A DNA stretch of 64,000 nt from NCBI RefSeq assembly GCF_945957525.1, contig NZ_CAMFLA010000005.1, positions 1-64,000 of the forward strand, in the 5' to 3' direction. Made by a program: the position numbers and the translations under genes. The DNA comes from an uncultured Aquitalea sp. (GTDB lineage: Bacteria > Pseudomonadota > Gammaproteobacteria > Burkholderiales > Chromobacteriaceae). The notes under the pieces are model-generated. The model made no database searches, was not told the DNA's origin, and saw nothing but the letters and a program-made list of their open reading frames with translations. This document shows, one piece after another, positions 186 through 63,840 of this stretch; the first letter of the stretch is position 1; every line of letters starts with the position of its first letter.

Positions 186-196
186 GTTGGCCGAAG
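186..196 (+). repeat. intergenic copy of the GTTGGCCGAAG word
   Basis: Exact copy of an 11-mer found 23 times in the window. This copy lies in non-coding DNA between the upstream terminator and the gcv promoter, so codon use cannot explain it. Confidence 0.6.
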
Positions 197-344
197 GCTG
201 GCGTTATCGGGAGAGCAGTTTTAAGCAAGCTGATAAAACTGGCTGAAATTGTGAGAAATTGGTGACGATGCGAATAAAATAATGCGCGAAATTTTTCATT
301 TGAAAACAAAAGCCTGATTGTCTTTGCTTGAAGATATTCTGGGC

Positions 345-373
345 TTGCCTTTGCCGGGGTCAACTACGATAAT
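345..373 (+). promoter_or_regulatory. gcv operon promoter (-35 TTGCCT, -10 GATAAT)
   Basis: TTGCCT at 345-350 and GATAAT at 368-373 are separated by exactly 17 bases, a good sigma-70 arrangement. Transcription would start near 380, just before the first glycine aptamer. The 250 bp upstream are AT-rich and hold no gene. Confidence 0.6.
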
Positions 374-382
374 CCGCCCATC

Positions 383-577
383 GTGCAGGAGAGAGCGGCC
401 CCGAGCCGCCGCCGAAGGCGCAAGCGCACCCGCAATCGCTCAGGCAAAAGGACTGCATCATCGGATAGTCATATCTGCTTTACTCTGGAGAGCGGCGCCC
501 TGTGAGGCGCCCACCGAAGGGGCTAACGGCGGCCAACAGTGCCCGCCGGAAAATCTCAGGTGTCAGGACAGAGGGGT
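383..577 (+). promoter_or_regulatory. tandem glycine riboswitch
   Basis: Two glycine aptamers lie in series in the gcvT leader. Aptamer 1 (about 383-456) has GGAGAGAGCGG, CGCCGAAGGCGCAA, AATCGCTCAGGCAAAAGG and a closing GCAG/CTGC stem. Aptamer 2 (about 483-577) has CTCTGGAGAGCGGC, CACCGAAGGGG, AAATCTCAGGTGTCAGG and ACAGAGGGG. These match the known gcvT motif. In this class glycine binding normally turns the cleavage operon on. The expression platform lies between 577 and the start codon at 621, around the ribosome site AAGGA (609-613); no clear intrinsic terminator is visible there, so control of translation is the likelier mode (inference). Confidence 0.93.
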
Positions 578-620
578 GTTGTACCAGCGGTAAACCACCC
601 TTAAATCCAAGGACGCACTG

Positions 621-1709
621 ATGACGGCCCCGAAACGCACCCCCCTGTTCGACGCCCATATCGCCTCCGGCGCCAAGATGGTCGACTTTGCCGGCTGGGA
701 AATGCCTATCCACTATGGCTCCCAACTGAAAGAGCACGAGATCGTCCGCAGCGATGCCGGCATGTTCGACGTGTCCCACATGACCGTCATCGACATCACC
801 GGCGCCGACGCCAAGTCCTGGTTGCGCCAGCTGATCGCCAACGATGTGGCCAAGCTGGGCTTCGAGGGCAAGGCGCTGTACTCCGGCATGCTGACCGAAA
901 ACGGCACCGTGGTGGATGACTTGATCGTCTACCTCACCGCCTGGGGCTACCGCATGGTGGTCAACGCCGGCACTACCGATAAAGATCTGGCCTGGATGGA
1001 CGCGCACAAGGCTGGTTTTGACGTCAGCCTGAACGTGCGTCGCGATCTGGCCATGCTGGCCGTGCAAGGTCCTAGCGCCATCGACAAGGTCTGTGCCGTG
1101 AAGCCCGCGCTGGCGGACGCCATCCGCGCGCTCAAGGTGTTCCAGGGTTTGCCGAACGACGAATGGTTCTACGCCCGTACCGGCTACACCGGCGAAGACG
1201 GCTTGGAAATCATGATTCCCGCCGCCGAGGCCATTACCTTTTTCAATCAGCTCAAGGACGCCGGCGTAGCGCCGATCGGCCTGGGCGCGCGCGACACCCT
1301 GCGCCTGGAAGCCGGCATGAACCTGTACGGCCACGACATGGACGAAACCGTGTCGCCGCTGCAGGCCGGCATGGGTTGGACCATTGCCTGGGAACCCGCC
1401 GACCGCAACTTCATCGGCCGCAAGGCGCTGGAAGCGCAAAAAGCCGCCGGCGTGCCCATGAAGCAAGTGGGTCTGGTGCTGGAAGGCCGCGGCGTGCTGC
1501 GCGAAGGCCAGACTGTGGTAGTGGAAGGCCACGGCGAAGGCATCATCACCAGCGGTACCTTCTCGCCGACCCTGAAACACTCCATCGCCATTGCCCGCGT
1601 GCCGGCCTCGACCGGCGACAACGCGCAAGTGGATTTGCGTGGTACGCTCACGCCTGTCCGCGTGGTGAAAATGCCGTTCGTCCGCAATGGCAAAAAAGTA
1701 TTCGACTGA
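621..1709 (+). CDS. gcvT: glycine cleavage system T protein (aminomethyltransferase)
   Basis: The 362-residue T protein moves the methylene group from the aminomethyl-lipoyl arm of GcvH to tetrahydrofolate and releases ammonia. It opens with the family signature [27 protein letters not shown] near residue 98 contains the folate-contacting aspartates, and [10 protein letters not shown] lies near 188. The C-terminal barrel ends in [10 protein letters not shown]. Length is normal for the family. ATG 621 follows AAGGA by seven bases and is the first gene behind the glycine riboswitch, so glycine should set its expression. gcvH begins 70 bp downstream in the same direction. Confidence 0.97.
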
Positions 1710-1779
1710 TCAAACGGCTGGATCGCGCCGTCGGTCGGCCTCCTTATCTGAATCTGAATAATCGACTGGAGAAGCATCA

Positions 1780-2163
1780 ATGAGCATTCCTGCAGACCTG
1801 AAATATGTTGCCAGCCACGAATGGCTGCGTCTGGAAGCCGACGGCAGCGTCACCGTGGGCATTACCGAGCACGCTCAAGAGCTGCTGGGTGACATCGTGT
1901 TTGTTGAGCTGCCGAAAGTGGGCGCCGTACTGGCCGCCGACGAGCAGGCCGGCGTGGTGGAATCGGTCAAGGCCGCTTCCGACGTGTATTCGCCGATCGC
2001 CGGCGAAGTGCTGGAAGTGAACAGCGAGCTGGAAGCCGCCCCCGAGTTGGCCAACAGCGAGCCCTACGCCGCCGGCTGGTTCTTCAAGATCAAGCCGGCC
2101 AACGCTGCCGATCTGGACAGCCTGATGGATGCCGCTGCTTACGCCAAGGAAATCGGCGCCTGA
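1780..2163 (+). CDS. gcvH: glycine cleavage system H protein (lipoyl carrier)
   Basis: This 127-residue carrier shuttles the aminomethyl intermediate between GcvP, GcvT and lipoamide dehydrogenase. The lipoylation site is Lys64 in the motif [10 protein letters not shown], in the usual place. The N-terminus [14 protein letters not shown] is characteristic. A GGAG site stands ten bases before ATG 1780. It shares the riboswitch-controlled transcript of gcvT; a terminator hairpin lies directly after its stop, so transcription into gcvP may be reduced. Confidence 0.97.
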
Positions 2164-2178
2164 GCCAGACAAGTGAAA

Positions 2179-2248: not shown

Positions 2249-5101
<2,853 letters not shown>

Positions 5102-5406: not shown

Positions 5407-7398
5407 ATGCCACGCAGCGTGTCGGCTACCGCCGAACCTGATTTTTCGCTTCTCGAACGCTTGAGCCATGCTGTCTGGGTGTTCGACATAGACGCCGGTC
5501 GGGTGCGCTGGGCCAATCGCGAGGCATTGCTGCTGTGGCGGGCCGAGTCGCTGGAGGATTTGCGGCAGCGGGATATGGCGACCGACATGTCCGAGTCGGT
5601 CGCCCGGCGCTTGCGCCAGTATCAGGCGGACTTCGAGCGCTACGACAGTCGTTTTTCCGAATCCTGGACCCTGTACCCGCAAGGCAGCCCCCGTACCATG
5701 CTGGTGGAATTCAGCGGCATTCGGGTGGCGGGGCGCATGATGATGCTGTGCGAGTGTCAGGGGCAGTTGCAGCTGGACGCCGACACGCTGATGCGCGCGG
5801 AGGGGCTGCTGCATACCTCCGCCATGATCAGCATGTACGGCGAAGACGGCATGCCCTTGTATCGCAATCCGGCGGCGCGGGAAAAAGTGCTCGATCCTTC
5901 GGCCGGCTGGCGCGAGCGACTGCTGGACCCGCAGGACGCGGCGCGGCTGGAAGCGCAACTGGATCAGGACGGGCAGGGACGTCTTGTGGCCCGCGTGCTC
6001 ACCCGCAAGGGCGAGCGCTGGCATGAACTGGCGGCGCGTCGTTGCCGCGACGCCGTATCCGGCAAGTCCAGCCTGCTGTTCAGCGAGATGGATATCAGCG
6101 AGCTGAAGGAGGCGGAGGCGAGGGCGCATTACCTAGCCAACCACGATACGCTTACCGGGCTGCCCAACCGCCATTACGTGATGCAGGCGTTTCAGGCGCT
6201 GCTGACCAGGGCTGCTGCGCAGGGCTTGCCCACAGCTTTGTTGTTTGTCGATCTGGACCGGTTCAAGTACGTGAATGATTCGCTGGGGCACTCCTTCGGC
6301 GATCAGTTGCTGGTGCAAATGAGCGAGCGCCTCAAGGGGCTGGTGGGCGCGCGTGCCCATCTGGCGCGCTTGGGCGGCGACGAGTTTCTGCTCTTGTTGG
6401 CCGAAGACGAGGCTGAAAGCGCCGCCCGCGCATTGGCGCTGGCGATCCGCGAGGCGGTGGCGCGTCCGGTACGGCTGGGCGGCATGGAAGTGCAGGTGAC
6501 GGCCTCGGTCGGCATCAGCCTGGGGCGCGACGGCGAACAGGATATCCAGACGCGCATGCGCCATGCGGATCTGGCGATGTACGCCGCCAAGGACGCCGGC
6601 CGCGACGACGTGATGTGCTACACCCCGGAAATGGGCGAGCGCGCCCGCGCGCGCCTGTCGCTGGAGAACGAAATCCGTCGTGGACTGGAGAACGGTGAGT
6701 TCCTGCCGTATTACCAGCCGCAGGTGGATTGCGGCAGCGGCCGCATCGTCGGTGCGGAGGCGCTGGTGCGCTGGCAGCACCCGGAGCGCGGCTTGTTGCT
6801 GCCCGGCGCTTTCATTTCCGTGTGCGAGGAAAGCGGCTTGATCCGCGAGCTGGACTTGCGGATTTTCCGCGAGGCCGCTCATCAGCTGGCGGACTGGCGC
6901 GCGCGCGGCTGGGCGCTGACGGTGTCGGTCAATTTGTCTGCCCGCCAGTTCACCCATCCCAGCCTGCTGCCCGATTTGTGCGAGATCCTTCGGCAAACAG
7001 GCTGCAAGGCGGACTGGATCGAGCTGGAAATCACCGAATCCCTGTTGCTGGGCCGCGATCAGGCTACCTTGCAAACCCTGACCGCGCTGCGCGAAGCCGG
7101 TTTTGCCATCGCCATCGACGATTTCGGCACCGGCTACAGCAATTTGGGCTATTTGCAGCAATATCCGCTGACCACGCTCAAGATCGACCGCTCCTTCATC
7201 AGCCGCTTGCCGGAAGATGCCGCCATCGCCGAATTGGTGATCACCTTGTGCCGATTGCTCAAACTCAGCATCGTGGCCGAAGGGGTGGAGCGGCAGGCCC
7301 AGCTGGACTGGTTGCGCGGCATGCAGTGTGAGCAGTATCAGGGCTTTCTGTGCAGCCCTGCCTTGCCGGTGAAGCACTTCGAGGAGCTGCTGGACTGA
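5407..7398 (+). CDS. PAS-GGDEF-EAL cyclic-di-GMP signalling protein
   Basis: About 663 residues with no obvious membrane segment, hence probably cytosolic. Two PAS-like regions (roughly 10-125 and 135-235) precede a GGDEF domain and an EAL domain. The diguanylate cyclase motif GGDEF is intact at 323-327, after DLDRFKYVNDSLGH. I see no RxxD product-inhibition site at the usual place before it. The phosphodiesterase motif EAL is intact at 451-453, with NLSARQF, EITESLL, IDDFGTGYSNLGYL and KIDRSFI following. Both activities are therefore possible, and the net direction cannot be read from sequence. TTG 5395 is an alternative start. It carries a GTTGGCCGAAG copy at 6396. It is monocistronic. Confidence 0.92.
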   Translation: MPRSVSATAEPDFSLLERLSHAVWVFDIDAGRVRWANREALLLWRAESLEDLRQRDMATDMSESVARRLRQYQADFERYDSRFSESWTLYPQGSPRTMLVEFSGIRVAGRMMMLCECQGQLQLDADTLMRAEGLLHTSAMISMYGEDGMPLYRNPAAREKVLDPSAGWRERLLDPQDAARLEAQLDQDGQGRLVARVLTRKGERWHELAARRCRDAVSGKSSLLFSEMDISELKEAEARAHYLANHDTLTGLPNRHYVMQAFQALLTRAAAQGLPTALLFVDLDRFKYVNDSLGHSFGDQLLVQMSERLKGLVGARAHLARLGGDEFLLLLAEDEAESAARALALAIREAVARPVRLGGMEVQVTASVGISLGRDGEQDIQTRMRHADLAMYAAKDAGRDDVMCYTPEMGERARARLSLENEIRRGLENGEFLPYYQPQVDCGSGRIVGAEALVRWQHPERGLLLPGAFISVCEESGLIRELDLRIFREAAHQLADWRARGWALTVSVNLSARQFTHPSLLPDLCEILRQTGCKADWIELEITESLLLGRDQATLQTLTALREAGFAIAIDDFGTGYSNLGYLQQYPLTTLKIDRSFISRLPEDAAIAELVITLCRLLKLSIVAEGVERQAQLDWLRGMQCEQYQGFLCSPALPVKHFEELLD

Positions 7399-9896: not shown

Positions 9897-10285
9897 GCCA
9901 ATACCACGTCCGCTGCGAATGCGGCGGCGTCAGCCTGACGATTCACGGCCAGCCCTTGCGGGTGTCGGTCTGTCACTGTCTGGCTTGCCGGCGCCGCACC
10001 GGCAGCGTGATGAGCGTGCAGGCGCGTTTTCTTGCGGCCGATCTCCAGCTGCAAGGCGAAACGCGCGAATACACCCGGCTGGCAGATAGCGGCAACGCCA
10101 TCCGCCAGCTATTCTGCTCCCGCTGCGCGGGCATCATCTGTTACTACAACAGCGCCTTGCCGACGCTGGCCATCGTGCCGGCCGGCATGTTGGCCGAAGC
10201 GCTACCGCCGCCCGATGTGTCCGTCTACGAGTGCCGCAAGGCCGGCTGGCTCAGCCTCTGCGGCGACATGCAGCATCTGGACTAA
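9893..10285 (+). CDS. GFA-family (CENP-V/GFA) zinc-binding protein
   Basis: A 130-residue protein with the cysteine pattern of the GFA fold: CECGG (residues 8-12), CHCLACRRRTG (about 28-38) and FCSRCAG (about 77-83), which would bind structural and catalytic zinc. The family includes glutathione-dependent formaldehyde-activating enzyme, but most members have no known substrate. It starts inside the stop codon of the preceding TetR gene (ATGA). One GTTGGCCGAAG copy (10189-10199) encodes Leu-Ala-Glu. Confidence 0.85.
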   Translation: MSQYHVRCECGGVSLTIHGQPLRVSVCHCLACRRRTGSVMSVQARFLAADLQLQGETREYTRLADSGNAIRQLFCSRCAGIICYYNSALPTLAIVPAGMLAEALPPPDVSVYECRKAGWLSLCGDMQHLD

Positions 10286-10480: not shown

Positions 10481-11152
10481 ATGCAAATCCAGACTGAATC
10501 CAAACCAGCACGAAGAACCCAGCAAAGCCGCCGAGACAGCACTATCGGCAAACTGGTGGAGGCCGCCATCGAATGCCTGATGGAGTTCGGCTACCACGGT
10601 ACCAGCGTACAAATCATTTGCAGCCGGGCCGGCATGTCGCAGGGGGCCTTGTTCCGGCATTTCGCCACCAAAAACGAACTGATGATGCCGGTAGCGCGCA
10701 AAGTGGTGGACGACATCTTTGCCGACGGCGCGGCGCTGGCCGACAGTTTGCCGAAGGACATGCCTGACGCAGAGCGCATGGTGGCGCTGATGAAGGCGCT
10801 GGTGCTGGCGCCGCGCCATGTGGTGTTGATGGAACTCTTGATGGCCGCGCGAACCACGGAAGACCTGCGGCTGTTGTTGTGCAAGCCCTCGGAGAATTAT
10901 TTCCGCGACCGCTTCGTGGCCATGATGGCCGGCTGCTTTCCGCGCTACGCGGTGCATAGCGGCTTCTTTGCCACCTTGCTCACCATGATGACCACCTTCC
11001 ACGGCATTGCGTTGTATCGCAGCGTGCACATGAACGAAGTAGGTGAGTCCATGCGCGAGCAGTGGCTGCTGAGCGCCTTGCGCGGCGAGCTGGAGGCCAT
11101 TCGCGCCCAGGGTGGCGACGCCGACAATCCGCTGTATCGCCTGCCTTTCTGA
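10481..11152 (+). CDS. TetR-family transcriptional regulator
   Basis: A 223-residue TetR regulator with DNA-binding helices at about 20-70 (GYHGTSVQIICSRAGMSQGA then LFRHFATKNELM). ATG 10481 is preferred to upstream in-frame codons because it leaves a normal-length N-terminal arm rich in Lys and Arg; the ribosome site is weak (GAGAAT). The 195 bp before it are non-coding. It ends convergent with the sensor kinase gene, and no clear target gene adjoins it. Confidence 0.87.
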   Translation: MQIQTESKPARRTQQSRRDSTIGKLVEAAIECLMEFGYHGTSVQIICSRAGMSQGALFRHFATKNELMMPVARKVVDDIFADGAALADSLPKDMPDAERMVALMKALVLAPRHVVLMELLMAARTTEDLRLLLCKPSENYFRDRFVAMMAGCFPRYAVHSGFFATLLTMMTTFHGIALYRSVHMNEVGESMREQWLLSALRGELEAIRAQGGDADNPLYRLPF

Positions 11153-11204: not shown

Positions 11205-12614
11205 CTAGCCCCCGGTAGGGGGGAACATCACCCGCACTGTCAGGCCGCCGCCTCGGGTTGGCCGAAGCGACACTTCCGCGCCATGCAGCCGCGCAATCTC
11301 GCGCACAATGGCTAAGCCCAGCCCGGTGCCGGCCACGGTATTGCCGCGTAAGCGGTAGAAGCGCTGGAATACTTTTTCCCGCTCTTCTGGCGGAATGCCC
11401 GGGCCGTTGTCTTCCACCTCCAACCAGGGGCAGTCGTCGCATCCCACTCGCACCGTGACTTGAGCGCCGTCGCGCCCGCCGGCGTAACGGATGGCGTTGT
11501 CCACAAGATTGCCCGCCAGCTCCTGCAGCAGCATGGGATGCCCTTCGATCAGGCAGGGTGCGGCGGCGGTACTGTCGTCAAAACCCAGATCCACTTGCCG
11601 TTGATGCGCCACCACCGCCCATTCCAGTGCGCCGTCGCGCGCCAGCGCCGGCAGGTCGACGCTTTCCAGCGTGACCGAGTGCCCGCTGTCCGGCTCCAGT
11701 CGCGAAAGCGACAGTAATTGTTCCACGCCGTGGGAGGCCTGTTTCAGCGTGGCTAGTGCCAGCGACTGCTGCTTGCGGCGCTGTGCCGGGTCGGTTTCGC
11801 GCTGGGCCAGCTCCAGTTGGGCCTGCATCACCGCCAGCGGTGTTTTCAATTGATGCGCGGCGTCGGCGAAGAAGCGCCGCCTCGCAGCCAGCATGCGCTG
11901 CAGGCGGCTGGTGTATTGATTGAAGCCCGCCACCAGCGGACGGATTTCGCGCGGCAGCGCGCCGGCGTCCAGTGGGGAGAGGTCGTCTTCGCCGCGTTCC
12001 GCCATCCGTTGCGACAGGCCGTGCAGCGGCCGCAGGGCGAAGGTGATGCCGACCAGTACGATGGCGAGCATGCACGCCACCAGCAAGCCCTCCTGCCGCA
12101 AGGCGCCCAGCAGGATGCCCTGGGCCAGTTGATGACGCGATTCCGGCGTTTCCGCCACCAGCACCCACACGCGGGCCGAGCCCAGCGTGAGAATGTCGCG
12201 CGCCAGGCAGGGCAGGGCCACCAGCCGCAGGGCTTCATCGCGGTAGCGGATATCGTAGAAGCGGGCTTGCGGTTTGGCCGGCCAGTCGGCGTTTGGCAGC
12301 GGCAAGTCTTCGTAACCGGTCAGTTGCTTGCCGTCCGCCTGCAGCACGCGGTAAAACACTCGGCCATTGGCGTTGCTCTCGAACATCTCCAAGGCAAAGT
12401 AAGGGATATCCACCTCCACGCCGCCCTGCCGCAGTGTGACGCCCTCGGCGATGGCGCGCGCAGAGGTGGCCAGCATGCGGTCGAAGGCGGCGTCTGCGGC
12501 CTGTCTTGCCCGGTGATAGGTGAGCCAGGCATCCAGCGCCAGCAGACTGAGCAGTGGCGCCAGCAGCCAGATCACCAGCCGGCGTCGCAGGCTGCTGGAC
12601 CGCAGTGCGCTCAC
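11205..12614 (-). CDS. TctE-like sensor histidine kinase
   Basis: A 469-residue inner-membrane kinase. TM1 is near residues 13-35 and TM2 near 165-190, enclosing a periplasmic sensor of the 2CSK/TctE type. HAMP follows, then the phosphoacceptor His254 in DAAHQLKTPL, and a HATPase domain with NLVDNAIRYAG, VEDNGPGIPPEE and GTGLGLAIVREI. It starts at GTG 12614, overlapping the regulator's stop as GTGA, so the pair is translationally coupled. The ligand is probably related to the cargo of the divergent ABC importer (inference). A GTTGGCCGAAG copy lies near its 3' end (11257), coding Leu-Arg-Pro-Thr on the minus strand. Confidence 0.92.
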   Translation of the reverse strand: MSALRSSSLRRRLVIWLLAPLLSLLALDAWLTYHRARQAADAAFDRMLATSARAIAEGVTLRQGGVEVDIPYFALEMFESNANGRVFYRVLQADGKQLTGYEDLPLPNADWPAKPQARFYDIRYRDEALRLVALPCLARDILTLGSARVWVLVAETPESRHQLAQGILLGALRQEGLLVACMLAIVLVGITFALRPLHGLSQRMAERGEDDLSPLDAGALPREIRPLVAGFNQYTSRLQRMLAARRRFFADAAHQLKTPLAVMQAQLELAQRETDPAQRRKQQSLALATLKQASHGVEQLLSLSRLEPDSGHSVTLESVDLPALARDGALEWAVVAHQRQVDLGFDDSTAAAPCLIEGHPMLLQELAGNLVDNAIRYAGGRDGAQVTVRVGCDDCPWLEVEDNGPGIPPEEREKVFQRFYRLRGNTVAGTGLGLAIVREIARLHGAEVSLRPTRGGGLTVRVMFPPTGG

Positions 12615-13400: not shown

Positions 13401-14498
13401 ATGAAAGCATTCGGCAAACTGGCGTTCGCCGCTTTTACTCTCAGCGCCTCGGCTGCCGCCTTGGCCGCGTCCGCGCCGGCCGGTTATCCCGCTGGTTATC
13501 AAAGCCTGGTGGACGGCGCGGTGAAGGAAGGCAAGCTGGTGATCTATTCCACTACCGACAGCGCGGCCGCCCGGCCGTTGATCAAGGACTTCGAGGCCTT
13601 GTATCCCGGGGTGAAGGTGGAATACAACGACATGAACAGCACCGAAATCTATAACCGGTTTCTCAGCGAAAACGCCGCCGGCAGCACCAGCGCCGACGTG
13701 GTGTGGAGCTCGGCGATGGATTTGCAGGTGAAATTCGTCAATGACGGCTTCGCCGCCAGTTACGCTTCGCCCGAAGTACCGGCTATTCCCACCTGGGCGC
13801 ATTACCAGCAGCAGGCTTACGGCACCACTTACGAACCACTGGCCATCGTTTACAACAAGCGCCTGATCAATGCCAAGGAAGTGCCGCAGAACCGCGCCGA
13901 GCTAATCCGCCTGCTGAAGTCCGATCCGGCCCGCTTCAAAGGCAAGGTCACCACTTACGATATCGAGAAATCCGGCGTCGGCTTCAACTATCTCACTCAG
14001 GATTTCCGCGTCAGCGGCAATGCCATCTGGGATCTGGTCAGCACGCTGGGCCAGTCCGGCGCCAAGTTGCAGACCTCCACCGGCGCGATGATGGAGCGGA
14101 TTTCCTCGGGCGAGAATCTGATCGGCTACAACATTCTCGGCTCCTACGCTTTCGCCAAGGCCAAGAAGGATCCGTCCATCGCTTATGTCTACCCCAAGGA
14201 CTACACCCAGATCGTCAGCCGGCTGGTGATCATCAACAAGAAGGCCCGCAGTCCCGGCGCGGCTCGCTTGTGGGTGGACTATCTGCTGTCCAAGCGGGGA
14301 CAGACCATTCTCGCCAATCAGTCCGATCTCTTTTCCATCCGCGCCGACGTCAGCGGGGAAACGTCCATGAGCGGGCTGACGCGCCAGTTGGGCAATGCGG
14401 CCCGTCCGATCCAGGTGGGCAGCGGCCTGCTGGTGTATCTGGATCAGGCCAAGCGACTGGAATTCATGCGCAACTGGCAGAAGTCCCTGCGCAACTGA
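13401..14498 (+). CDS. AfuA/FbpA-like ABC transporter substrate-binding protein
   Basis: A 365-residue periplasmic binding protein, signal peptide about 1-22 (KLAFAAFTLSASAAALAAS). GKLVIYSTTDSAAARPLIKD and YNDMNSTEIYNRFLSEN are typical of the family that includes ferric-iron binders and the sugar-phosphate binder AfuA. I do not see a clear tyrosine pair for iron. Together with its kinase/regulator partner this favours a phosphorylated organic ligand over iron (inference from described AfuABC systems). Its ribosome site is GAGGAG before ATG 13401. A group of hairpins separates it from its permease gene. Confidence 0.88.
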   Translation: MKAFGKLAFAAFTLSASAAALAASAPAGYPAGYQSLVDGAVKEGKLVIYSTTDSAAARPLIKDFEALYPGVKVEYNDMNSTEIYNRFLSENAAGSTSADVVWSSAMDLQVKFVNDGFAASYASPEVPAIPTWAHYQQQAYGTTYEPLAIVYNKRLINAKEVPQNRAELIRLLKSDPARFKGKVTTYDIEKSGVGFNYLTQDFRVSGNAIWDLVSTLGQSGAKLQTSTGAMMERISSGENLIGYNILGSYAFAKAKKDPSIAYVYPKDYTQIVSRLVIINKKARSPGAARLWVDYLLSKRGQTILANQSDLFSIRADVSGETSMSGLTRQLGNAARPIQVGSGLLVYLDQAKRLEFMRNWQKSLRN

Positions 14499-16404: not shown

Positions 16405-17464
16405 GCTTGTCGTCGACCAACTGCAATTGAGCTATGACAGCACGCCGATTCTCAAAGGCGTTTCGTTTGAACTGGCCGCCGGGCAAGTCGTGTCTTTGCT
16501 GGGTGCCTCCGGCAGTGGCAAGACCACGCTGCTGCGGGCCATCGCCGGGCTGGAATCGCCGTCAGCCGGCCGCATCCTGCTGGACGGACAGCCGCTGTAC
16601 GATGCTTCGGCCAACTTCAATTTGCCCGTGGAACACCGCTCGCTGGGCCTGGTATTCCAGTCTTACGCGCTGTGGCCGCATCGCACTGTGGCGCAAAACG
16701 TGGGCTACGGCTTGCAGTTGCGCAAGACGGGCAAGGCTGAAATCCGCGAACGAGTGCAGCAGGTGTTGGACCAGCTGGGTCTGGGCGCGCTGGCCGAGCG
16801 CTACCCCTATCAGCTGTCTGGCGGCCAGCAGCAGCGGGTCGCCATTGCGCGGGCGCTGGTGTACAACCCGCCGGTGATCCTGCTGGACGAGCCCCTGTCC
16901 AATCTGGACGCCAAGCTGCGGGAAGAGGCCCGCGCCTGGCTGCGCGAGCTGATTGTGTCGCTCAACCTGTCCGCCTTGTGCGTCACGCATGACCAGAGCG
17001 AAGCCATGGCCATGTCCGATCGCATTCTTTTGCTGCGCAACGGCCGCATCGAACAGGCCGGCGCGCCGGCCGAGCTGTATGGCTCTCCGGTCAGTCTGTA
17101 CGCCGCCGAGTTCATGGGCGCCAATAACCGGCTGCAGGCCCGGGTTGGCCGAAGAGAAGGCGACAAGGTGCTGCTGCAGGGCGAAGGCTGGCAGGTGGCC
17201 GGCCAGGCCCGGGGGGCGTTGAGCGAAGGCGGCCATGCCGATGTGGTGGTGCGGCTGGAAAAACTGCGCGTGCTGGATGCGCCCGCCGACAACGCCATCC
17301 GCGCACGACTGGTCACGTCCATGTATCTGGGCGACCGCTGGGAGTATCTGTTCCACCAGGGGGATTTGCGCCTGCGCGCCTACGGGGCAGAAGCGCGCGC
17401 GCCGGGAGATTACTGGGTGGCGTTTCCGCCCGGTGACACCTGGGCGTTTGCCGCCGAGGCGTAA
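16397..17464 (+). CDS. ABC transporter ATP-binding protein, FbpC/AfuC-like
   Basis: A 355-residue ATPase: Walker A GASGSGKTT at 36-44, Q-loop in LGLVFQSYALWPH, signature LSGGQQQRVAIARAL near 140, Walker B VILLDEPLSNLD near 160 and the switch histidine in CVTHDQSEAM. The C-terminal third (about 240-355) is a TOBE-like regulatory region as in iron and sugar-phosphate importers. It holds two GTTGGCCGAAG words, one per strand (16605 minus, 17144 plus). It is the last gene of the importer operon. Confidence 0.93.
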   Translation: MTKLVVDQLQLSYDSTPILKGVSFELAAGQVVSLLGASGSGKTTLLRAIAGLESPSAGRILLDGQPLYDASANFNLPVEHRSLGLVFQSYALWPHRTVAQNVGYGLQLRKTGKAEIRERVQQVLDQLGLGALAERYPYQLSGGQQQRVAIARALVYNPPVILLDEPLSNLDAKLREEARAWLRELIVSLNLSALCVTHDQSEAMAMSDRILLLRNGRIEQAGAPAELYGSPVSLYAAEFMGANNRLQARVGRREGDKVLLQGEGWQVAGQARGALSEGGHADVVVRLEKLRVLDAPADNAIRARLVTSMYLGDRWEYLFHQGDLRLRAYGAEARAPGDYWVAFPPGDTWAFAAEA

Positions 17465-35892: not shown

Positions 35893-36162
35893 TCAGTCGG
35901 TATCGACAAACCACTCCTCGTGCCGCTCCCCTTCCAGTAGCGGCATCATCGACCCGGCCGCCTCGCGCAGCGCTTCGGCAAACCCGCTGTCTGTCGGCAC
36001 ATCGCGGTAGATTTCCATCCAGGTATGCGGATCGTCGCGACGGCGCTGCAAGACCGCTTGTACGTCCCAGATCGCCAGCTGCGCCTGTTGCGCCGCAAAT
36101 GCCGCCTTCAGCGCAGCCCCGTCGGCCTGCGAGCGGTAATAAACATAAAGATGGCAAGCCAT
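35893..36162 (-). CDS. DUF4936 family protein
   Basis: An 89-residue protein beginning MACHLYVYYRSQ, with RDDPHTWMEIYRDV and the tail ERHEEWFVD, which fits the DUF4936 family of small betaproteobacterial proteins. Function unknown. ATG 36162 follows AAAGGA. It diverges from tyrA across about 100 bp; a longer antisense frame through tyrA is a shadow. Confidence 0.7.
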   Translation of the reverse strand: MACHLYVYYRSQADGAALKAAFAAQQAQLAIWDVQAVLQRRRDDPHTWMEIYRDVPTDSGFAEALREAAGSMMPLLEGERHEEWFVDTD

Positions 36163-36264
36163 GTTTTCCTTTCCGGCCAAAGCGCGTTGCGCAGCGTCAA
36201 AATCGCTTATGATAGACGTTTGCCGAAACGGCGTGGAATAGCGCAGCCATAGGGAAAGGGGAGC

Positions 36265-45159: not shown

Positions 45160-45197
45160 CCGCTTCGGGGTGTTGTGGGTGGTGTTGGCCGAAGCGG
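45160..45197 (-). repeat. intercistronic hairpin containing a GTTGGCCGAAG word
   Basis: CCGCTTCGG (45160-45168) and CCGAAGCGG (45189-45197) pair over nine bases between fruK and fruA. The right arm overlaps the intergenic GTTGGCCGAAG at 45184-45194. It may tune fruA expression or stabilise the upstream mRNA. Confidence 0.5.
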
Positions 45198-48889: not shown

Positions 48890-49873
48890 ATGACTGCACG
48901 CATCAAGGATGTCGCCTTGGCTGCCGGCGTATCGGTGGCCACGGTGTCGCGCGTATTGAGCAACGGCCCGGTGAGCGAGGAGCTGCGCCGCAAGGTGCTG
49001 GCCGCGGTGGAGGCCACCGGCTATCTGCCCAACCTGTCCGCCCGCCGTTTGCGTTCCCGCCACAGCCACACCATCGGGCTGATTGTGTCGGACATCCGCA
49101 ACCCCTTCTTTACCGCGGTGAGCCGCGCCGTGGAGGACGCCGCCTACGAAGTGGGCATGCGCGTCATTCTCTGCAATACCGATGAAAATCCGGACAAGGA
49201 AGCGCTCTATCTGCGGTTGATGCAGGAAGAGCGTGTCACCGGCGTCATTCTCGCCCCTACCGGCGCCACGGCCCAGCAGCTGGACCCGGTGGCGCTGGGC
49301 TTTCCGGTGGTGCTGATCGACAGAGCCGCCTTGCCTGGTCAGGCGGATGCGGTGGTGCTGGACAATGCCGACGCCGCCAGCATGCTGGTGGAACACTTGT
49401 TGCAGCAGGGTTATCGCCGCATTGGCGGGCTATTCGGCAAAACCAGCACTACTGGCGCGGAGCGCTGCGCCGGCATGGAGGCGGCGCTGCGCAAGCATGA
49501 TCTGCCCGGCGACGCGCGTTTTATCTTGCCCACGCCGGAAGCGGCCGAGCTGGCCTTGCTTTCATGGTTGGCCGAAGAGAACCGGCCGGATGCGCTGCTG
49601 GCGAGTAATGGCCTGATACTGCTGGGCATGTTGCGCGCCGCGAGAAGGGCGGGCATCCGTATTCCGGAGGATATCGCCATCGCCGGTTTCGACAACGACA
49701 ACTGGACCGAGCTGGCCGGCCCCGGTCTGACGGTGATCGAACAACCGGTATACGACATTGGCCGCACGGCCATGCGCATGCTGCTGGAGCGACTGGACGA
49801 CACCGGGCGCAGCGCGCGCAAAGTGGTGCTGTCAGGACGGCTGGTGGTGAGGGGTTCTACTGCCTCGCGTTGA
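48890..49873 (+). CDS. fruR: LacI-family fructose repressor
   Basis: A 327-residue repressor. The DNA-binding domain RIKDVALAAGVSVATVSRVL (residues 4-23) and hinge (about 45-60, NLSARRLRSRHS) are followed by a periplasmic-binding-like sensor with TIGLIVSDIRNPFF and AIAGFDNDNW. Divergent placement to fruBKA and the shared operators identify it as FruR. ATG 48890 puts the HTH at its usual distance; the in-frame ATG 48836 would translate through the operator. It carries GTTGGCCGAAG at 49567. The 190 bp after it hold nothing recognisable. Confidence 0.93.
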   Translation: MTARIKDVALAAGVSVATVSRVLSNGPVSEELRRKVLAAVEATGYLPNLSARRLRSRHSHTIGLIVSDIRNPFFTAVSRAVEDAAYEVGMRVILCNTDENPDKEALYLRLMQEERVTGVILAPTGATAQQLDPVALGFPVVLIDRAALPGQADAVVLDNADAASMLVEHLLQQGYRRIGGLFGKTSTTGAERCAGMEAALRKHDLPGDARFILPTPEAAELALLSWLAEENRPDALLASNGLILLGMLRAARRAGIRIPEDIAIAGFDNDNWTELAGPGLTVIEQPVYDIGRTAMRMLLERLDDTGRSARKVVLSGRLVVRGSTASR

Positions 49874-51375: not shown

Positions 51376-51795
51376 TCAAGGCAAGGCGGCGCGGATGACG
51401 CCCAGCTTGTCCGCCGCTTGCCAACCATCCGGTTTCAGTACTTTGCCGTCGGCGCGGCGCACCACTTTGCCATCCACCATCTTGCGCAAATTGGCATCGT
51501 GGATGGCCTGGGTCATCGCCTCCAGCGGCAAGCCTTGCGATAGCAGCAGGCCGCAAACAATGTTGAGCACGTCCACACCTTCCGCTGTCAACTCGGCCAT
51601 GGCGGCCAACTGCTGCTCGGTGTCGAGGCTGGCTGAGGCATGGTAGTCGGCCAGCGCCTGGCGAAATTCCGCTACCTCTTCGGCCAACATGGTCTCCCAC
51701 ATGTCCAGCGCCTGTTCATTGCGCTGCGGGCTGGCGGGCGGGGCCATGTCGAAGCGCTGCATGAAGTCGCGGCGGATAGCGAAGAGGTTGGTCAT
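51376..51795 (-). CDS. MazG-like nucleoside triphosphate pyrophosphohydrolase
   Basis: A 139-residue all-alpha NTP pyrophosphatase. The metal-binding helices show EEVAEFRQAL (about 39-48) and ELTAEGVDVLNIVCGL (about 68-83), the ExxE...ExxD layout of the superfamily; AIHDANLRKMVDGKVV follows. It is shorter than MazG and lacks HisE signatures, so the nucleotide it hydrolyses is unknown. It contains GTTGGCCGAAG at 51678 (Leu-Ala-Glu). Confidence 0.8.
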   Translation of the reverse strand: MTNLFAIRRDFMQRFDMAPPASPQRNEQALDMWETMLAEEVAEFRQALADYHASASLDTEQQLAAMAELTAEGVDVLNIVCGLLLSQGLPLEAMTQAIHDANLRKMVDGKVVRRADGKVLKPDGWQAADKLGVIRAALP

Positions 51796-51928: not shown

Positions 51929-53215
51929 TCAGGCCTGCAGGGTGGCCAGTACCTCGAAGTAGTCCGGGAAGGTCTTGGCCACGCACTTGGGATCGTTGAT
52001 CACCACCGGCACGCCCAGCAGCGATACCAGCGAGAAGCACATCGCCATGCGGTGATCATCGTAAGTATCGATTTGCGCATCCGGCGTCAGCGCCGATGGC
52101 GGCGTGATGCGGATGTAGTCCTGGCCTTCCTCTACCGTGGCGCCCACTTTGCGCAACTCGGTGGCCATGGCGGCCAGGCGATCGGTTTCCTTCACGCGCC
52201 AGCTTTCGATATTGCGCAGCGTGGTGGTGCCGTCTGCGGCCAGCGCGGCCACCGCCAGCGTCATGGCGGCGTCCGGGATGTGGTTGAGATCCGCGTCGAT
52301 GGCGCGCAACGGGCCATTGGCGCGGGCTTCAATCCAGTTGTCGCCCATGGTGATCTCCACACCCATCAATGCCAGCGCTTCGGCAAACTTCACATCGCCC
52401 TGAATGCTGGAGCGGCCTACGCCTTCCACGCGGACCGGTCCGCCGGCCAGCGCTCCGGCGGCCAGGAAGTAGGACGCGCTGGAGGCGTCGCCTTCCACAT
52501 GGACTTCGCCCGGGGAGATGTAATGCTGACCGCCCGGGATGATGAAGCGTTGCCAGCCCTGGCGCTCCACTTGCACGCCGAAGCACGCCATCAGATTGAG
52601 CGTGATTTCGATATACGGCTTGGAAATGAGCTCGCCCACCACTTCTATGGTGACGGTCTCGCCAGTCAGTGGCAGAGCCATCAGCAGGGCGGTGAGGAAC
52701 TGGCTGGATACATTGCCCTTCACCGGAATCACCTGGCCGGCGGTGACGCTGGCCGGGGAGATGCTCAACGGCGGGTAGCCCGGGTTGCCCCGGTACTGGA
52801 TATCCGCGCCGGCAATGCGCAGCGCATCCACCAGGTCGCCGATCGGACGTTCGTGCATGCGGGGCACGCCGGAGAGCTGGTAATGGCCCTGCATCAGCGC
52901 CAGCGCGGCGGTCAGCGGGCGAAAAGCCGTGCCGGCGTTGCCCAGAAAAAGATCAGCGCTTTTTACCGGAAACTCACCGCCCACGCCCTGAACGCGGAAA
53001 TCGCGGCTGTCGCCGATTTGCTCCACTTCAACGCCCAGCAGGCCCAGCGCGGCCAGCATGTGACGAATGTCGTCCGAATCCAGCAGATCGCGCACCAGCG
53101 TCGAACCGCTGGACAGCGCGGCCAGCAGCAGGGTGCGGTTGGAAATGCTCTTGGAGCCGGGAAGTTTGATGGTGCCGGAGAGGCGCGGAGTCGGGGTAAG
53201 GCGAAGCTGTTCCAT
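51929..53215 (-). CDS. aroA: 3-phosphoshikimate 1-carboxyvinyltransferase (EPSP synthase)
   Basis: A 428-residue shikimate-pathway enzyme joining PEP to shikimate-3-phosphate. [17 protein letters not shown] is at 19-35, [15 protein letters not shown] near 90 and the segment [12 protein letters not shown] near 380. The GNAGTA-type loop corresponds to the glyphosate-sensitive class I enzyme. It diverges from cmk across about 390 bp; in many betaproteobacteria aroA instead precedes cmk on the same strand. Confidence 0.95.
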
Positions 53216-53606
53216 GGCGATTGGGCGGTGTCTCTGTTGCGTGTCAGGATGGTCCGTCGGTGTGCTTGTCTTTGGCGAATCGCCAACGTCGCCTCGCCGC
53301 GTCAGCCCGGCTGCGGCGCTGTCGGGCGCGGCTGGAGGGTGAAGCATGACGCGGAGGAGGGCGGGCGATTCTTTAATATCATCACGCGCGGACGACCCGG
53401 CCCGGCGTTGCCATGCCACTGTAAAGCCCTAGGGGTCTTTCTGCCAACCATTGCGGCGCTTTTTCTGTTGCGAGGCAGCAAAAGTCATCGCGCTTAATCG
53501 TGTCGCACAGCCGGGCGCTGGGGTAAAATCAACAGTTTGCCGAAGATGGCCCCGCTGGCCCTTTGGCCAAGCTCAACATACCGCAATCCGGACTCCGAAC
53601 CCCATC
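53216..53606. other. 391-bp intergenic region between aroA and cmk
   Basis: There is no convincing gene. It must hold divergent promoters; TTGGCG-AAT-CGCCAA (53273-53287) is a perfect short dyad and the stretch around 53370 (TTCTTTAATATCATC) is AT-rich. No GTTGGCCGAAG copy is present. Confidence 0.5.
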
Positions 53607-56887: not shown

Positions 56888-58048
56888 TTGGAACTGGATC
56901 TGTGGTGGCTATTGCTGTTTCCGGCCTTTTTCGGCCTGGGCTGGCTGGCCGCGCGCGTAGACATGCGCACCGTATTGAAGCAGGCCAAGGCGGTGCCGAC
57001 TGGTTTTTATCGCGGACTGGATGCGCTGGTGGACGACAAGACCGACGTCGCGGCTGGTGCGTTGGCCGAAGTGTCCCGTCAGCAGGGCTCTGCGGTGGAG
57101 TTGCAACTGACGCTGGGCAAGCTGTATCGCAAACGCGGCGAGAATGATCGCGCTATCCGCTTGCACCAGCGCATGCTGGAGTCTTCCGATCTGCCGGGCG
57201 ATCAGCGCGATATTGTGCGCAACGAGCTGGCGCAGGATTTTCGCAAAGCCGGGCTGGTGGATCGCGCCGAAGAAATTCTGTTGAAATTGTTGACCGGCAA
57301 TATGGCGCTGGCGGCCCGCCGTCAGCTGCTGGATATCTACCAGCAGGATCGCGACTGGAAAAAAGCCATTGAAACCGCCAAGGAACTGCGCAGCGATGCG
57401 CACTCCTTTCAGCATGAAGTGGCGCAGTTTTATTGTGAACTGGCGCAAGGCGAGTTGTACCGTTCCAATCATGCCGCCGCTCGTGCGCTGGTGGATGAAG
57501 CCTTCGCCGCCAATCGCAAATGCGTGCGCGCCAGCCTGATCCTGGGCGACATCGAGTTTGCCGAAGGCCGCATTCACGAAGCGATCGCCGCCTGGCAGAA
57601 CATCGAGAAACAGAATTTCGACTATCTCACCATGGCTGCCGAACGCTTGTTCGATGCATACGAGAAGCTGGACAAGCCGATGGAAGGCATCGCCTTGCTG
57701 CGTGGTTATCAAAAAACCTTTCCGCAGCTTGAATTGACCGATCTGCTGTATCAGAAGCTCTGCGCCTACGAGGGCGAGGAACGCGCGCTGGAAGTGGCGC
57801 GCGAAGCGGTGCATGCGCGCCCCAACCTGATGGGCGTGTACCGCCTGATCGAAGCGCAGATGGACGAACTGTCGCCCGAAGGGCGCATGGATGCCGAAGT
57901 GGCGCGCGCGCTGGTGCAAAAGCATGCCCAGCGACTGACCGTGCATCGCTGCAAATGCTGCAATTTCCGCTCCCGGGCCTTCTTCTGGCACTGCCCGGCT
58001 TGCGGCGAGTGGGAGAGCTTCACGCCCAACCGCTCGGAAACCCATTGA
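56888..58048 (+). CDS. lapB: lipopolysaccharide assembly protein LapB
   Basis: A 386-residue protein that couples lipopolysaccharide supply to LpxC degradation in E. coli. An N-terminal membrane helix ([20 protein letters not shown]) anchors TPR repeats (about 45-340), and a C-terminal rubredoxin-like zinc site has CKCCNF and CPACGEW. It starts at TTG 56888, after AAGGA with good spacing; no ATG lies close enough to include the helix. It carries GTTGGCCGAAG at 57061. Confidence 0.94.
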
Positions 58049-58814: not shown

Positions 58815-60130
58815 AAATCACCGTGATCGGCTCCGGTTATGTCGGTCTTGTCACCGGCACTTGCCTCGCCGAAGTGGGCAACCATGTCTGCTGTCTGGAC
58901 GTGGATCCGGACAAGATCGCTACTTTGCAGGCGGGCGGCATTCCCATTTACGAACCCGGTCTGGACGATATGGTGCGCCGCAATGTGGCGGCAGGTCGTC
59001 TGAGCTTCACCACGGACGTGGCGGAGTCGGTCGCCTTTGGCGACATCCAGTTCATAGCCGTCGGCACGCCGCCGGACGAGGACGGCTCCGCAGACCTGCA
59101 ATACGTGCTGGCCGCCGCGCGCAATATCGGCCGCCATATGCAGGGCTACAAGGTGGTGGTGGACAAGTCCACGGTGCCGGTGGGTACGGCCGACAAGGTG
59201 CGCGCCGCCATTGCAGAGACCTTGGCCGAGCGCGGCGAAGACCTGCCTTTCAGCGTGGTGTCCAATCCGGAATTCCTCAAGGAAGGCGCGGCTATCGAAG
59301 ACTTCATGAAGCCGGACCGCATCGTGGTGGGCGTGGAGGATGAGCGTTCGGTGGAGTTGATGCGCCGTCTGTACGCGCCGTTCCAGCGCAATCACGAGCG
59401 TATCCTGTTCATGGACCTGCGCTCCGCGGAGCTGACCAAATACGCCGCCAACGCCATGCTGGCCACGCGCATTTCCTTCATGAACGAGCTGGCCAATCTG
59501 GCCGAGACGCTGGGCGCGGATATCGAGCTGGTGCGCAAGGGCATCGGTTCGGATCCGCGCATCGGCTATCACTTCCTCTATCCCGGCGCCGGTTACGGCG
59601 GCTCCTGCTTCCCCAAGGACGTCAAGGCGCTGGTGGCGACGGGCCGTGAGAACGGCCACGCCATGCGCGTGCTAACGGCGGTGGAAGAGGCCAACGATAG
59701 CCAGAAACGCCGCCTGGCGGACAAGCTGGTGGCAAGGCTGGGCGAGGACCTGACTGGCCGCCGCATCGCACTGTGGGGCCTGGCTTTCAAGCCCAATACC
59801 GACGATATGCGCGAAGCGCCCAGTCGGGTGCTGGTGGACGAACTGACCCGGCGCGGCGCGCAGGTGGCGGCATATGACCCGGTGGCGATGGAAGAGGCCG
59901 CCCGGGTGATGGGCGACAATTCGCGCCTGACGTTTGCCGAAGACATGATGCAAGCAGTGCAGGGCGCCGACGCGCTGATCATTGTTACGGAGTGGAAGAT
60001 GTTCCGCGCTCCGGATGTCGACGCCATCAAGGCCGCGCTCAAGCAGCCCTTGCTGATAGACGGCCGCAATATGTACGACCCGGCCTGGATGCGCGAGCAA
60101 GGCTTCGATTATCTGGCCATCGGCCGCTGA
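58811..60130 (+). CDS. ugd: UDP-glucose 6-dehydrogenase
   Basis: A 439-residue enzyme oxidising UDP-glucose to UDP-glucuronate for surface polysaccharide or lipid A modification. The NAD motif [16 protein letters not shown] is at 5-20, [11 protein letters not shown] near 119, and the catalytic Cys266 is in [30 protein letters not shown]-type sequence (here [19 protein letters not shown]) starts the C-terminal domain. It overlaps pyrF, and hldA follows after seven bases. Confidence 0.96.
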
Positions 60131-61100: not shown

Positions 61101-61101
61101 C

Positions 61102-62698: not shown

Positions 62699-62728
62699 TG
62701 CCTGCCGGCCCGGCTATCGGGCTGTCAA

Positions 62729-62766
62729 AGCATAAACCCCGCTTTCTAGCGGGGTTTATGCTTTTT
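62729..62766 (+). terminator. terminator after hldD
   Basis: GCATAAACCCCGCT, loop TTCT, AGCGGGGTTTATGC: a perfect 14-bp stem, then TTTTT. It ends the lapA-hldD transcription unit. Confidence 0.95.
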
Positions 62767-62831
62767 GCGGATAAGGATTTCGAGTTATTTGATTAGATAA
62801 ATCGGTTCGCTACGGCGGCTCGGACAGTTCG

Positions 62832-62837
62832 TATAAT
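62832..62837 (+). promoter_or_regulatory. -10 element of the cysM promoter
   Basis: TATAAT, a perfect -10; the -35 is weak (GCTACG at 17-base spacing), suggesting an activator. Its position excludes ATG 62836 as the cysM start codon because the mRNA would begin near 62844. Confidence 0.6.
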
Positions 62838-62862
62838 GACCGGCTGTTCAGGAGAATATACC

Positions 62863-63750
62863 GTGTTCAAGCATCTGGAAGACTTTGTCGGCCATACCCC
62901 GCTGGTGAAGCTGAAGCGCATGCCCGGTCAGACCAGCAATATCGTGCTGGTGAAGCTGGAAGGCAACAACCCCGCCGGCTCGGTGAAAGACCGTCCGGCC
63001 CTGTCCATGATCCGGCGCGCCGAGGCGCGCGGCGATATTCGCCCTGGCGACACGCTGATCGAACCGACCAGCGGCAATACCGGCATCGCGCTGGCGATGG
63101 CCGCCGCCATGATGGGTTACAAGCTGATCCTGATCATGCCGGAAAACTCTAGCGCCGAACGGGTGCAGACCATGCGCGCCTACGGCGCGGAAGTGGTGCT
63201 CACCCCCAAGGAAACCTCCATGCCGGGCGCCATCGATGAAGCGCACCGCTTGCGCGACCAGGGGCGCGGCGTCATCCTCGACCAGTTTTCCAACCCGGAC
63301 AACCCGCTGGCGCATTACGAAACCACCGGCCCGGAAATCTGGGCCGACACCCAGGGCCGGGTCACACACTTCGTTTCCAGCATGGGGACCACCGGCACCA
63401 TCATGGGCAACAGCCGTTTCCTCAAGGAAATGAATCCGGCGATTCAGATCATTGGCGTGCAGCCGGAAACCGGCAGCCAGATTCCCGGCATCCGCAAATG
63501 GGAAGACGCTTACCTGCCGAAGATTTGTGATTTCTCCCGTATCGACGATCTGCAATACGTGGGTCAGGACGAGGCGGAAGAAACGGCGCGCCGGCTGGCG
63601 AGGGAGGAGGGCATTCTGGCCGGCCCCTCGTCGGGCGGGGCGTTGGCGGTGGCATTGCGCCTGAACCAGCAACTGGAAAACGCCGTCATTGTGTCCATTG
63701 TTTGCGACCGGGGCGATCGCTATTTGTCTACCGGTTTGTTCCCCCTGTAA
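62863..63750 (+). CDS. cysM: cysteine synthase B
   Basis: A 295-residue PLP enzyme making cysteine from O-acetylserine and sulfide or thiosulfate. The PLP lysine is Lys42 in NPAGSVKDRPAL; the substrate loop is EPTSGNTGIAL and the phosphate cradle GTTGTIMGNSR. The P-A-L-S-M and length fit CysM rather than CysK. GTG 62863 is chosen because AGGAG lies eight bases before it and the ATG nine codons upstream falls inside the -10 box. Weak -35 suggests CysB-type activation (inference). Confidence 0.95.
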   Translation: MFKHLEDFVGHTPLVKLKRMPGQTSNIVLVKLEGNNPAGSVKDRPALSMIRRAEARGDIRPGDTLIEPTSGNTGIALAMAAAMMGYKLILIMPENSSAERVQTMRAYGAEVVLTPKETSMPGAIDEAHRLRDQGRGVILDQFSNPDNPLAHYETTGPEIWADTQGRVTHFVSSMGTTGTIMGNSRFLKEMNPAIQIIGVQPETGSQIPGIRKWEDAYLPKICDFSRIDDLQYVGQDEAEETARRLAREEGILAGPSSGGALAVALRLNQQLENAVIVSIVCDRGDRYLSTGLFPL

Positions 63751-63812
63751 CAGTCTGTCCGGGACGGCGCGCCGGGTGGCGCGACGCCGCCGGCAAGGCG
63801 CAAGCAGGGTTT

Positions 63813-63840
63813 CTTCGGCCAACCTCAGGGTTGGCCGAAG
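63813..63840. repeat. inverted pair of GTTGGCCGAAG words downstream of cysM
   Basis: CTTCGGCCAACC (63813-63824) and GGTTGGCCGAAG (63829-63840) form a perfect 12-bp stem with loop TCAG, 62 bp after the cysM stop. No T-run follows. In Neisseria, uptake-sequence pairs of this shape double as terminators. Two exact 11-mers within 28 bases make this the densest site in the window. Confidence 0.75.

Follow-up and report, generated by a model that had tools for sequence, protein, structure and literature searches.

A candidate DNA uptake sequence and its dialects in the Chromobacteriaceae

DNA uptake sequences (DUS) of the Neisseriaceae are words of 10–12 bp that occur in hundreds to thousands of copies on both strands of a genome (PMC3630211, PMC12061091, PMC4906244). 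They are described as forming dialects that differ at one or a few positions, as having an AG or AA left flank and as occurring in inverted pairs, in genomes that encode a ComP-type minor pilin; their CTG core is, according to PMC3630211, common to all described dialects and required for the transformation of meningococci. Here, we analyse a 64,000-nucleotide stretch of DNA (hereafter the window; contig NZ_CAMFLA010000005.1, positions 1 to 64,000) from an uncultured Aquitalea sp. (assembly GCF_945957525.1), in which the 11-mer GTTGGCCGAAG had been put forward, from the letters alone, as the candidate DUS of a non-Neisseriaceae member of Neisseriales. That placement fits: the GTDB family of the window is Chromobacteriaceae, and its genus (g1) also includes Aquitalea magnusonii and A. 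aquatica. We find that the word exceeds what codon effects produce, that it has dialects in other genera, that it is restricted to this family within our sample, and that the genome encodes ComP and ComEC homologues. Apart from the core, the word is like the neisserial DUS in the respects listed above; at positions +6 to +8 it reads CCG, not CTG.

Uptake words are described in PMC12616744 for two families only, Neisseriaceae and Pasteurellaceae. The uptake signal sequence (USS) of the Pasteurellaceae is likewise a genome-wide self word, often in inverted pairs, but its predicted receptor is ComN/PpdA and not ComP (PMC12616744). A 2013 survey reported no obvious DUS in Laribacter, Lutiella nitroferrum 2002, Pseudogulbenkiania NH8B and two Chromobacterium, and it held that DUS evolved after the split from a shared ancestor, with Chromobacterium violaceum as outgroup (PMC3630211). 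Among the papers listed in searches of the literature we found none naming the word, or a DUS, in the genera treated here, with the proviso that Table S1D of the survey, on over-represented 10-mers, may print the word without a DUS label (PMC3630211). As far as the literature found goes, an uptake tag is previously unreported in Chromobacteriaceae.

Copies of the word in the genome and in the window

The genome of the window (G000), a draft of 35 contigs and 4,045,770 bases, holds 1,069 copies of GTTGGCCGAAG, 520 on one strand and 549 on the other, against five (1 + 4) of the reversed control word. Comparison with a codon-aware model, a check that the original prediction had proposed, left the count far above the null: when synonymous codons were shuffled across the 384 genes that an automatic caller placed in 448,542 bases of the genome (11%), a mean of 8.9 coding copies of GTTGGCCGAA resulted (largest 15, 40 runs), and 125 are observed; a repeat of 30 runs gave a mean of 8.2 and again a largest value of 15. 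In this 448-kb sample the coding copies stand in all six frame and strand contexts, where they encode peptides as varied as had been supposed (Leu-Ala-Glu, Phe-Gly-Gln, Ser-Ala-Asn, Val-Gly-Arg, Arg-Pro-Thr and Trp-Pro-Lys), and the intergenic 13% of the sequence contains 32 of the 158 GTTGGCCGAA copies. Copies in every context as well as between genes argue for selection on the DNA.

Within the window, all 23 exact copies of GTTGGCCGAAG were found again at the positions and on the strands first given for them. Fourteen are on the plus strand (186..196, 6396..6406, 10189..10199, 11257..11267, 17144..17154, 23520..23530, 28613..28623, 29580..29590, 34557..34567, 38208..38218, 45184..45194, 49567..49577, 57061..57071 and 63830–63840) and nine on the minus strand (3480..3490, 16605..16615, 21203..21213, 25480..25490, 37385..37395, 39714..39724, 39954..39964, 51678..51688 and 63813–63823). 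Dinucleotide shuffles yield a mean of 0.06 copies and at most one, in line with the earlier estimate of about 0.05. Although the over-representation of the 11-mer stood, the unit itself is the 10-mer GTT[G/T]GCCGAA, which the window contains 40 times where 0.38 would be expected. Besides the 23 with an 11th G, a 10-mer search gave three GTTGGCCGAA copies without that G, all on the minus strand (4147..4156, 4582..4591 and 42333..42342), and 14 copies of a second form, GTTTGCCGAA, on the plus strand at 1147..1156, 10746..10755, 22931..22940, 29265..29274, 36218..36227, 53535..53544, 57556..57565 and 59932..59941 and on the minus strand at 6989..6998, 13410..13419, 35974..35983, 38401..38410, 45729..45738 and 52379..52388.

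Automatic gene calls agree that four of the 23 copies are intergenic (186, 10189, 63813 and 63830), with the reservation that the copy at 186 might sit in an open reading frame running off the left end, which the gene caller ignores. They place 11 copies, among them 6396..6406, in a Leu-Ala-Glu frame, where 14 had been claimed. That these copies always use TTG for Leu is built into the word and carries no independent evidence, because GTTGGCC in this frame already contains TTG; in its valid form the argument is that TTG-GCC-GAA makes up 74 of the 183 Leu-Ala-Glu triplets of the 448-kb sample, though Leu is CTG 9,322 times and TTG 2,345 times. Nor is the CTG-GCC-GAA at 60801 the only one: CTGGCCGAA occurs at three window sites, 60801 on the plus strand and 47674 and 56623 on the minus strand.

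The word has a short informative flank. In the sampled part of the genome, position +4 is G in 158 copies (GTTGGCCGAA) and T in 81 (GTTTGCCGAA), a G follows at +11 in 76%, and the left flank carries A at −2 in 49% and G at −1 in 41%; across 13 genomes, A at −2 ranges from 39 to 90%, G is commonest at −1 (38 to 85%), and A at −3 and positions +11/+12 are informative in some. Between −8 and +18 in the window's genome we saw no conserved sequence well beyond the word, with at most 0.15 bit per position past −2 and +11. This pattern would befit a binding site and not a dispersed element, and the same lack of wider conservation speaks against a repetitive extragenic palindrome (REP), a bacterial interspersed mosaic element (BIME) or a mobile element repeat. 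The form GTTTGCCGAA accounts for one copy in three in the sample of this genome but is rare in the samples of other word-bearing genomes; two co-existing dialects or a tolerant receptor are possible readings.

Copies also pair. Across 13 genomes, about 14 neighbours would be expected at less than 30 bp from each other; 33 are found, 32 of them oppositely oriented. In the window, such an inverted pair occupies the intergenic interval 63813..63840 (63813–63823 minus, 63830–63840 plus), with a perfect 12-bp stem and a 4-base loop; the segment 63800–63870 folds at −33.3 kcal/mol (z −4.30). Of the suggestion that it resembles an uptake-sequence terminator, the stem holds but the T-run is absent, so the pair does not fit the intrinsic-terminator consensus and was rejected as an intrinsic terminator. 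In g2 an inverted pair is itself dispersed: with 1,500 bases of G027 as the query, G441 showed 77 matches and G367 showed 73, and nearly all among the matches listed cover one 45-base piece, on both strands.

Dialects, relatives and distribution of the word

We derived dialects from de novo word counts in genome samples, with a threshold of z of 10 or more. GTTGGCCGAA ranks first in seven genomes and GTTGGCCGAG in the two of g160, and GTTGGCCGCA comes first in five and second in one (G312) of six sampled g2 genomes; the dialects thus end in AA, AG or CA, with G or T at +4 in the window's genome. As a positive control, the same script recovered the known DUS in all three readable genomes of f44 (ATGCCGTCTGAA, AGGCCGTCTGAA and AGGCAGCCTGAA/AGGCTGCCTGAA; a fourth stretch, read as N, was dropped), a family that we infer from its DUS and ComP to be Neisseriaceae. 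In Gulbenkiania mobilis (G283, stretches L047–L051), CTTGGCCGAA is also over-represented (14 vs 0.6) and is possibly a +1 variant of the word.

The word with its flank, AGGTTGGCCGAA, is identical in register to simDUS AGGCTGCCTGAA at 9 of 12 positions (A−2, G−1, G+1, T+3, G+4, C+6, G+8, A+9 and A+10), a count that includes a flank whose A−2 and G−1 are only the commonest, not universal, in the window's genome. In-register matches number eight for AG-DUS, kingDUS and eikDUS, seven for AT-DUS and six for king3. Shuffled words reach 9/12 in 0.8% of 20,000 cases in any register and strand and in 0.3% in fixed register; random 12-mers from the window do so in 1.2% and 0.3%. It was correct that the word contains no neisserial core, yet to call it unrelated to neisserial DUS was too strong, and it is probably not unrelated, judging from these words. 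CTG at +6 to +8 is absent from every dialect found here, CCG standing in its place, and neither strand of GTTGGCCGAA contains CTG. T at +2 and G at +5 are absent from the six dialects compared, and the neisserial A at +10 is shared by the AA and CA endings, the g160 word having G. The g2 dialect AAGGTTGGCCGCA has C at +9 in common with the AA-king3DUS AAGCAGCCTGCA of Kingella and differs from it in its core, CCG vs CTG (PMC10715097). Because the CTG core is lacking, we file the word as a sister variant working like DUS and not as a described dialect. We take the Pasteurellaceae USS word to be unrelated to it.

Distribution was followed in 399 evenly sampled genomes of the GTDB order, 386 of them outside the family, and in a set of 61 genomes of the family. 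Across the order, GTTGGCCGAAG is high only in the window's genome and in G283 (753), the next highest count being 18, and AGGTTGGCCG reaches 442 to 1,267 copies in eight genomes, all of the family. In each of the 386 outside genomes AGGTTGGCCG has at most 64 copies, several-fold above the reversed control in some, perhaps because the word contains common codons. The repeat in other Chromobacteriaceae that had been suggested gave a divided answer. The core GTTGGCCG exceeds its reversed control 2.5- to 25-fold in 23 of the 61 family genomes (G000; G283; G426 and G427; G428 and G429; G436; G437–G439; and 13 of 13 in g2). In the other 38, among them the nine other members of the window's genus, the ratio is 0.9 to 2.4. 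The lowest of the 23, G438 (643 vs 255), touches the upper background and is grouped with the word-bearing genomes because GTTKGCCGAAG has 124 copies there against two. The window's genome is the sole word-bearing one among ten of its genus, with 1,518 copies of GTTKGCCGAAG against 17 to 33 in the other nine.

Other genera of the family include Pseudogulbenkiania, Gulbenkiania, Crenobacter and Chromobacterium. Counts of GTTKGCCGAA and its control are 2,190 and 29 in JH1-16, 1,281 and 10 in Gulbenkiania mobilis, 1,132 and 14 in Pseudogulbenkiania ferrooxidans 2002, 922 and 27 in P. subflava, 604 and 36 in Crenobacter oryzisoli and 205 and 17 in a Pseudogulbenkiania metagenome-assembled genome. 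P. ferrooxidans 2002 is, we assume, the Lutiella nitroferrum 2002 of the 2013 survey, and its 1,132 copies therefore speak against 'no obvious DUS' for that genome. Six named Aquitalea have 36–90 copies vs 13–43, about two to three times the control, which perhaps marks decayed remnants or perhaps codon use; five genomes of the Chromobacterium group (four Chromobacterium and one labelled Xenophilus) have 32–58 vs 17–25, and 'Neisseriaceae bacterium TC5R-5' has 39 vs 19.

No word with z≥10 was found in samples of Chromobacterium G411 (160 kb) and G410 (80 kb), Aquitalea G223 (180 kb) and G341 (80 kb), g162 G430 and G433 (80 kb each) or g159 G422 (only 20 kb). The count of GTTGGCCG falls short of its codon null in each of the four samples of Aquitalea and Chromobacterium (10/20.9, 4/10.2, 16/23.8 and 9/13.8), so the word-less state is real. 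Several of the weak top words of word-less samples contain CTGGCCGA, which stands at 1.3 to 1.6 times the codon null in G223, G341, G410 and G411 and at 0.9 times in G430. At only 1.3 to 1.6 times the null we rejected it as a clear dialect of Aquitalea and Chromobacterium; a codon-pair effect or a very weak dialect are possible readings of the excess.

The ComP homologue

A ComP-like minor pilin, which it had been proposed to look for, is encoded in the window's genome. Among its 18 matches to the pilin N-terminal (N_methyl) model, 16 above the cut-off, the protein L025 (contig C9, 75204–75599) has Neisseria ComP chains as its best solved relatives (2m3k, 2.1e-10; 5hz7, 2.5e-10; 2nba, 2.9e-10), the next, a major pilin, following at 3.8e-5. 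This comparison covered four small non-major pilins and not the two major pilins L010 and L011; ComP was not among the matches listed for the other three small pilins, L009, L012 and L015. The JH1-16 homologue likewise has ComP as its best relative (9.1e-11), as do, more weakly, the homologues in the word-less Chromobacterium piscinae (1.2e-7) and Aquitalea palustris (1.3e-5). The solved-ComP comparison discriminates; the Pfam model PF16732 'ComP_DUS' was rejected as proof because it also matches the paralogues L009, L012 and L015, with L012 scoring highest, and on the pilins NCBIfam gave general pilin models only.

L025 is the last gene of a cluster that follows polA and consists of a GspH/FimT-type pilin, a PilV-like protein (no Pfam match), a PilW-like protein (N_methyl only), PilX (PF13681) and ComP. 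Of 18 named loci, 17 have a fimT homologue upstream of comP (the remaining one is at a contig end), 16 have a pilX homologue and 12 have polA, which in one case is a fragment. Pseudogulbenkiania and Gulbenkiania have pilX and comP about 3 kb apart. The window's genome has four separate type IV minor-pilin clusters (C6:152456–158335, C14:124806–131344, C12:16229–19584 and C9:72858–75599). It also encodes a ComEC homologue (PF03772, 180 bits), a match that is no proof of competence because 10 of 14 control genomes have it too.

We read ComP homologues from 55 of the 61 family genomes; the four g159 genomes gave no match or only weak pilin matches, and G432 and G434 had matches outside the 55 read. 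A profile of the family's ComP has its best matches outside the family in the ComP of f44, with a match in each of the 11 f44 genomes; L194, one of the proteins retrieved, contains the 2nba core. In a tree of 77 pilins, the ComPs of both families fall together, with paralogues and other pilins apart. G436 has two ComP-like pilins in tandem (C3, 1518681 and 1519217, L264), one of which falls with the paralogues.

Two features of these proteins bear on how DNA might be read. The first is the neisserial Lys in '[FY]K.xST.WP' of ComP, which by alignment position lies in the α1–β1 loop, a loop that docking places on DNA (PMC12061091). At this position, the 23 word-bearing genomes have K in 21, R in one and T in one, and the 32 word-less genomes have no K or R, five of them showing a gap; Neisseriaceae have K in 10 of 11. 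The second is the DD region, described as ComP's distinctive DNA-binding feature (PMC4906244). A Cys at the C76 position, which forms the C76–C125 bond of this region, is present in 9 of 11 Neisseriaceae ComPs and in none of the 55 family ComPs, that of the window's genome included; in contrast to the neisserial protein, the Chromobacteriaceae ComP thus lacks this disulfide cysteine and has a short DD region. The two Neisseriaceae without the Cys (G168 and G089) branch apart in the ComP tree, a placement subject to a long-branch warning. In G168 (f44), the ComP L188 lacks the cysteine, like Chromobacteriaceae ComP, though king and sim DUS words are present. From these alignments, the DD region may be derived inside Neisseriaceae; if the family ComPs read DNA, the second disulfide would not be essential.

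How the word may be read and what it would mean

Genome count, codon null, strand use, inverted pairs, dialects in other genera and the ComP homologue support the reading of the word as an uptake word, and it is very probably an uptake sequence of some kind. More specifically, we propose, with a probability of about 0.75, that GTT[G/T]GCCGAA is a DUS, a dialect of the GTTGGCCGAA/GTTGGCCGAG/GTTGGCCGCA set in several genera of the family, and that this ComP would read it. The ComP-type minor pilin of the fimT–pilV–pilW–pilX–comP cluster beside polA would sit in the type IV pilus and bind outside double-stranded DNA carrying the word; pilus retraction and ComEC would bring that DNA in, and homologous recombination would then spread and keep the word by molecular drive, so that it would come to fill the genome on both strands wherever the protein permits. 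Binding, preferential uptake and competence are what we infer in this scheme.

Several observations weigh against it. ComP homologues occur in all 32 word-less genomes read, so ComP alone does not predict the word, and the ComP of the window's genome is the one word-bearing case with T, not K or R, in the loop. Because the word labels cluster on the tree, the loop association perhaps amounts to two or three independent changes (losses) and not to 55 cases. The tree support for the joint ComP group, 88/79, is below the usual mark. In the window's genome alone, close pairs number four, all opposite, where random placement gives four to five. Conservation of orthologous copies beyond what codons require, another proposed check, is positive only to a modest degree in a g2 species pair. 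There, 24 copies are unchanged, out of 29 aligned with G027 as the starting point or 30 with G441, compared with 63% of CTGGCCG-containing words and 66% of all 10-mers (p 0.03 to 0.04, the control count taking each aligned pair twice). A Pseudogulbenkiania pair has too few sites: six of eight are kept, the corresponding figures being 62% for 10-mers and 8 of 22 for control words. In the literature consulted on these organisms, we found no uptake, binding or competence data.

Some of these points would fit a different reader: the uptake word might be recognized by another pilin or surface protein, or have arisen independently of neisserial DUS, the ComP homologue being a general minor pilin of the pilus tip. 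The presence of ComP in all 32 word-less genomes read, the lack of the CTG core of all described neisserial dialects, the missing DD disulfide, the absence of the loop lysine from the ComP of the window's genome and the matches of the Pfam model to paralogues would agree with this alternative. We nevertheless judge this alternative unlikely, since the identity to simDUS, flank included, is seldom reached by shuffled words, a K or R in the loop follows the word (22 of 23 vs 0 of 32), and the paralogue L015, rejected as receptor, has no match (E 1e-12) in the word-bearing G283, G428, G429 and G436 and is present in many word-less genomes.

A chromosome-maintenance motif unrelated to uptake, such as a Chi-like site, an FtsK signal resembling the FtsK-orienting polar sequences (KOPS) or a nucleoid-protein site, would account for dispersed sites, and the copies in the window's genome are indeed spaced fairly evenly, every 1.6–1.8 kb on average with a coefficient of variation of 0.77–0.80. 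Chromosome-maintenance systems are, however, conserved among close relatives, and this word all but vanishes in the nine other genomes of its genus and changes dialect in sister genera. Nor does it follow GC skew: the G-rich strand carries 130 of the 239 copies (p 0.20; draft genome, 11% sampled), which bears out the claim that both strands are used without strong bias. A motif of this kind is thus very improbable. Least probable of all is that codon-pair or dinucleotide bias produced the word as a by-product, or that it is a restriction–modification footprint. The Leu-Ala-Glu frame, which takes 11 of the 23 window copies, would speak for this reading; against it stand the use of all six contexts and the codon shuffle and intergenic share given above, and restriction avoidance would deplete the word, not enrich it.

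Returning to a DUS read by ComP, we see an even chance that the common ancestor of Neisseriaceae and Chromobacteriaceae had an AAGG-TG-C-GAA word, a single-disulfide ComP and a basic α1–β1 residue; that the cores CTG and CCG were fixed later; that the DD region arose in Neisseriaceae; and that Chromobacterium and most Aquitalea lost the word and kept a loop-changed ComP. If this is true, the DUS–ComP system would be older than thought, and reading a DUS would need neither the second disulfide nor the CTG core.

A second dialect set with another core, together with 55 ComPs from genomes with and without the word, offers a natural experiment on the structural question of how ComP reads DNA; the same experiment bears on the origin, switching and loss of uptake words. 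Environmental strains may become easier to transform if the word is added to the DNA, for example of Pseudogulbenkiania and Gulbenkiania. For the bacteria themselves, several of which hold about a thousand or more copies per genome, the word is probably a 'self' tag by which their own DNA would be recognized during gene uptake.

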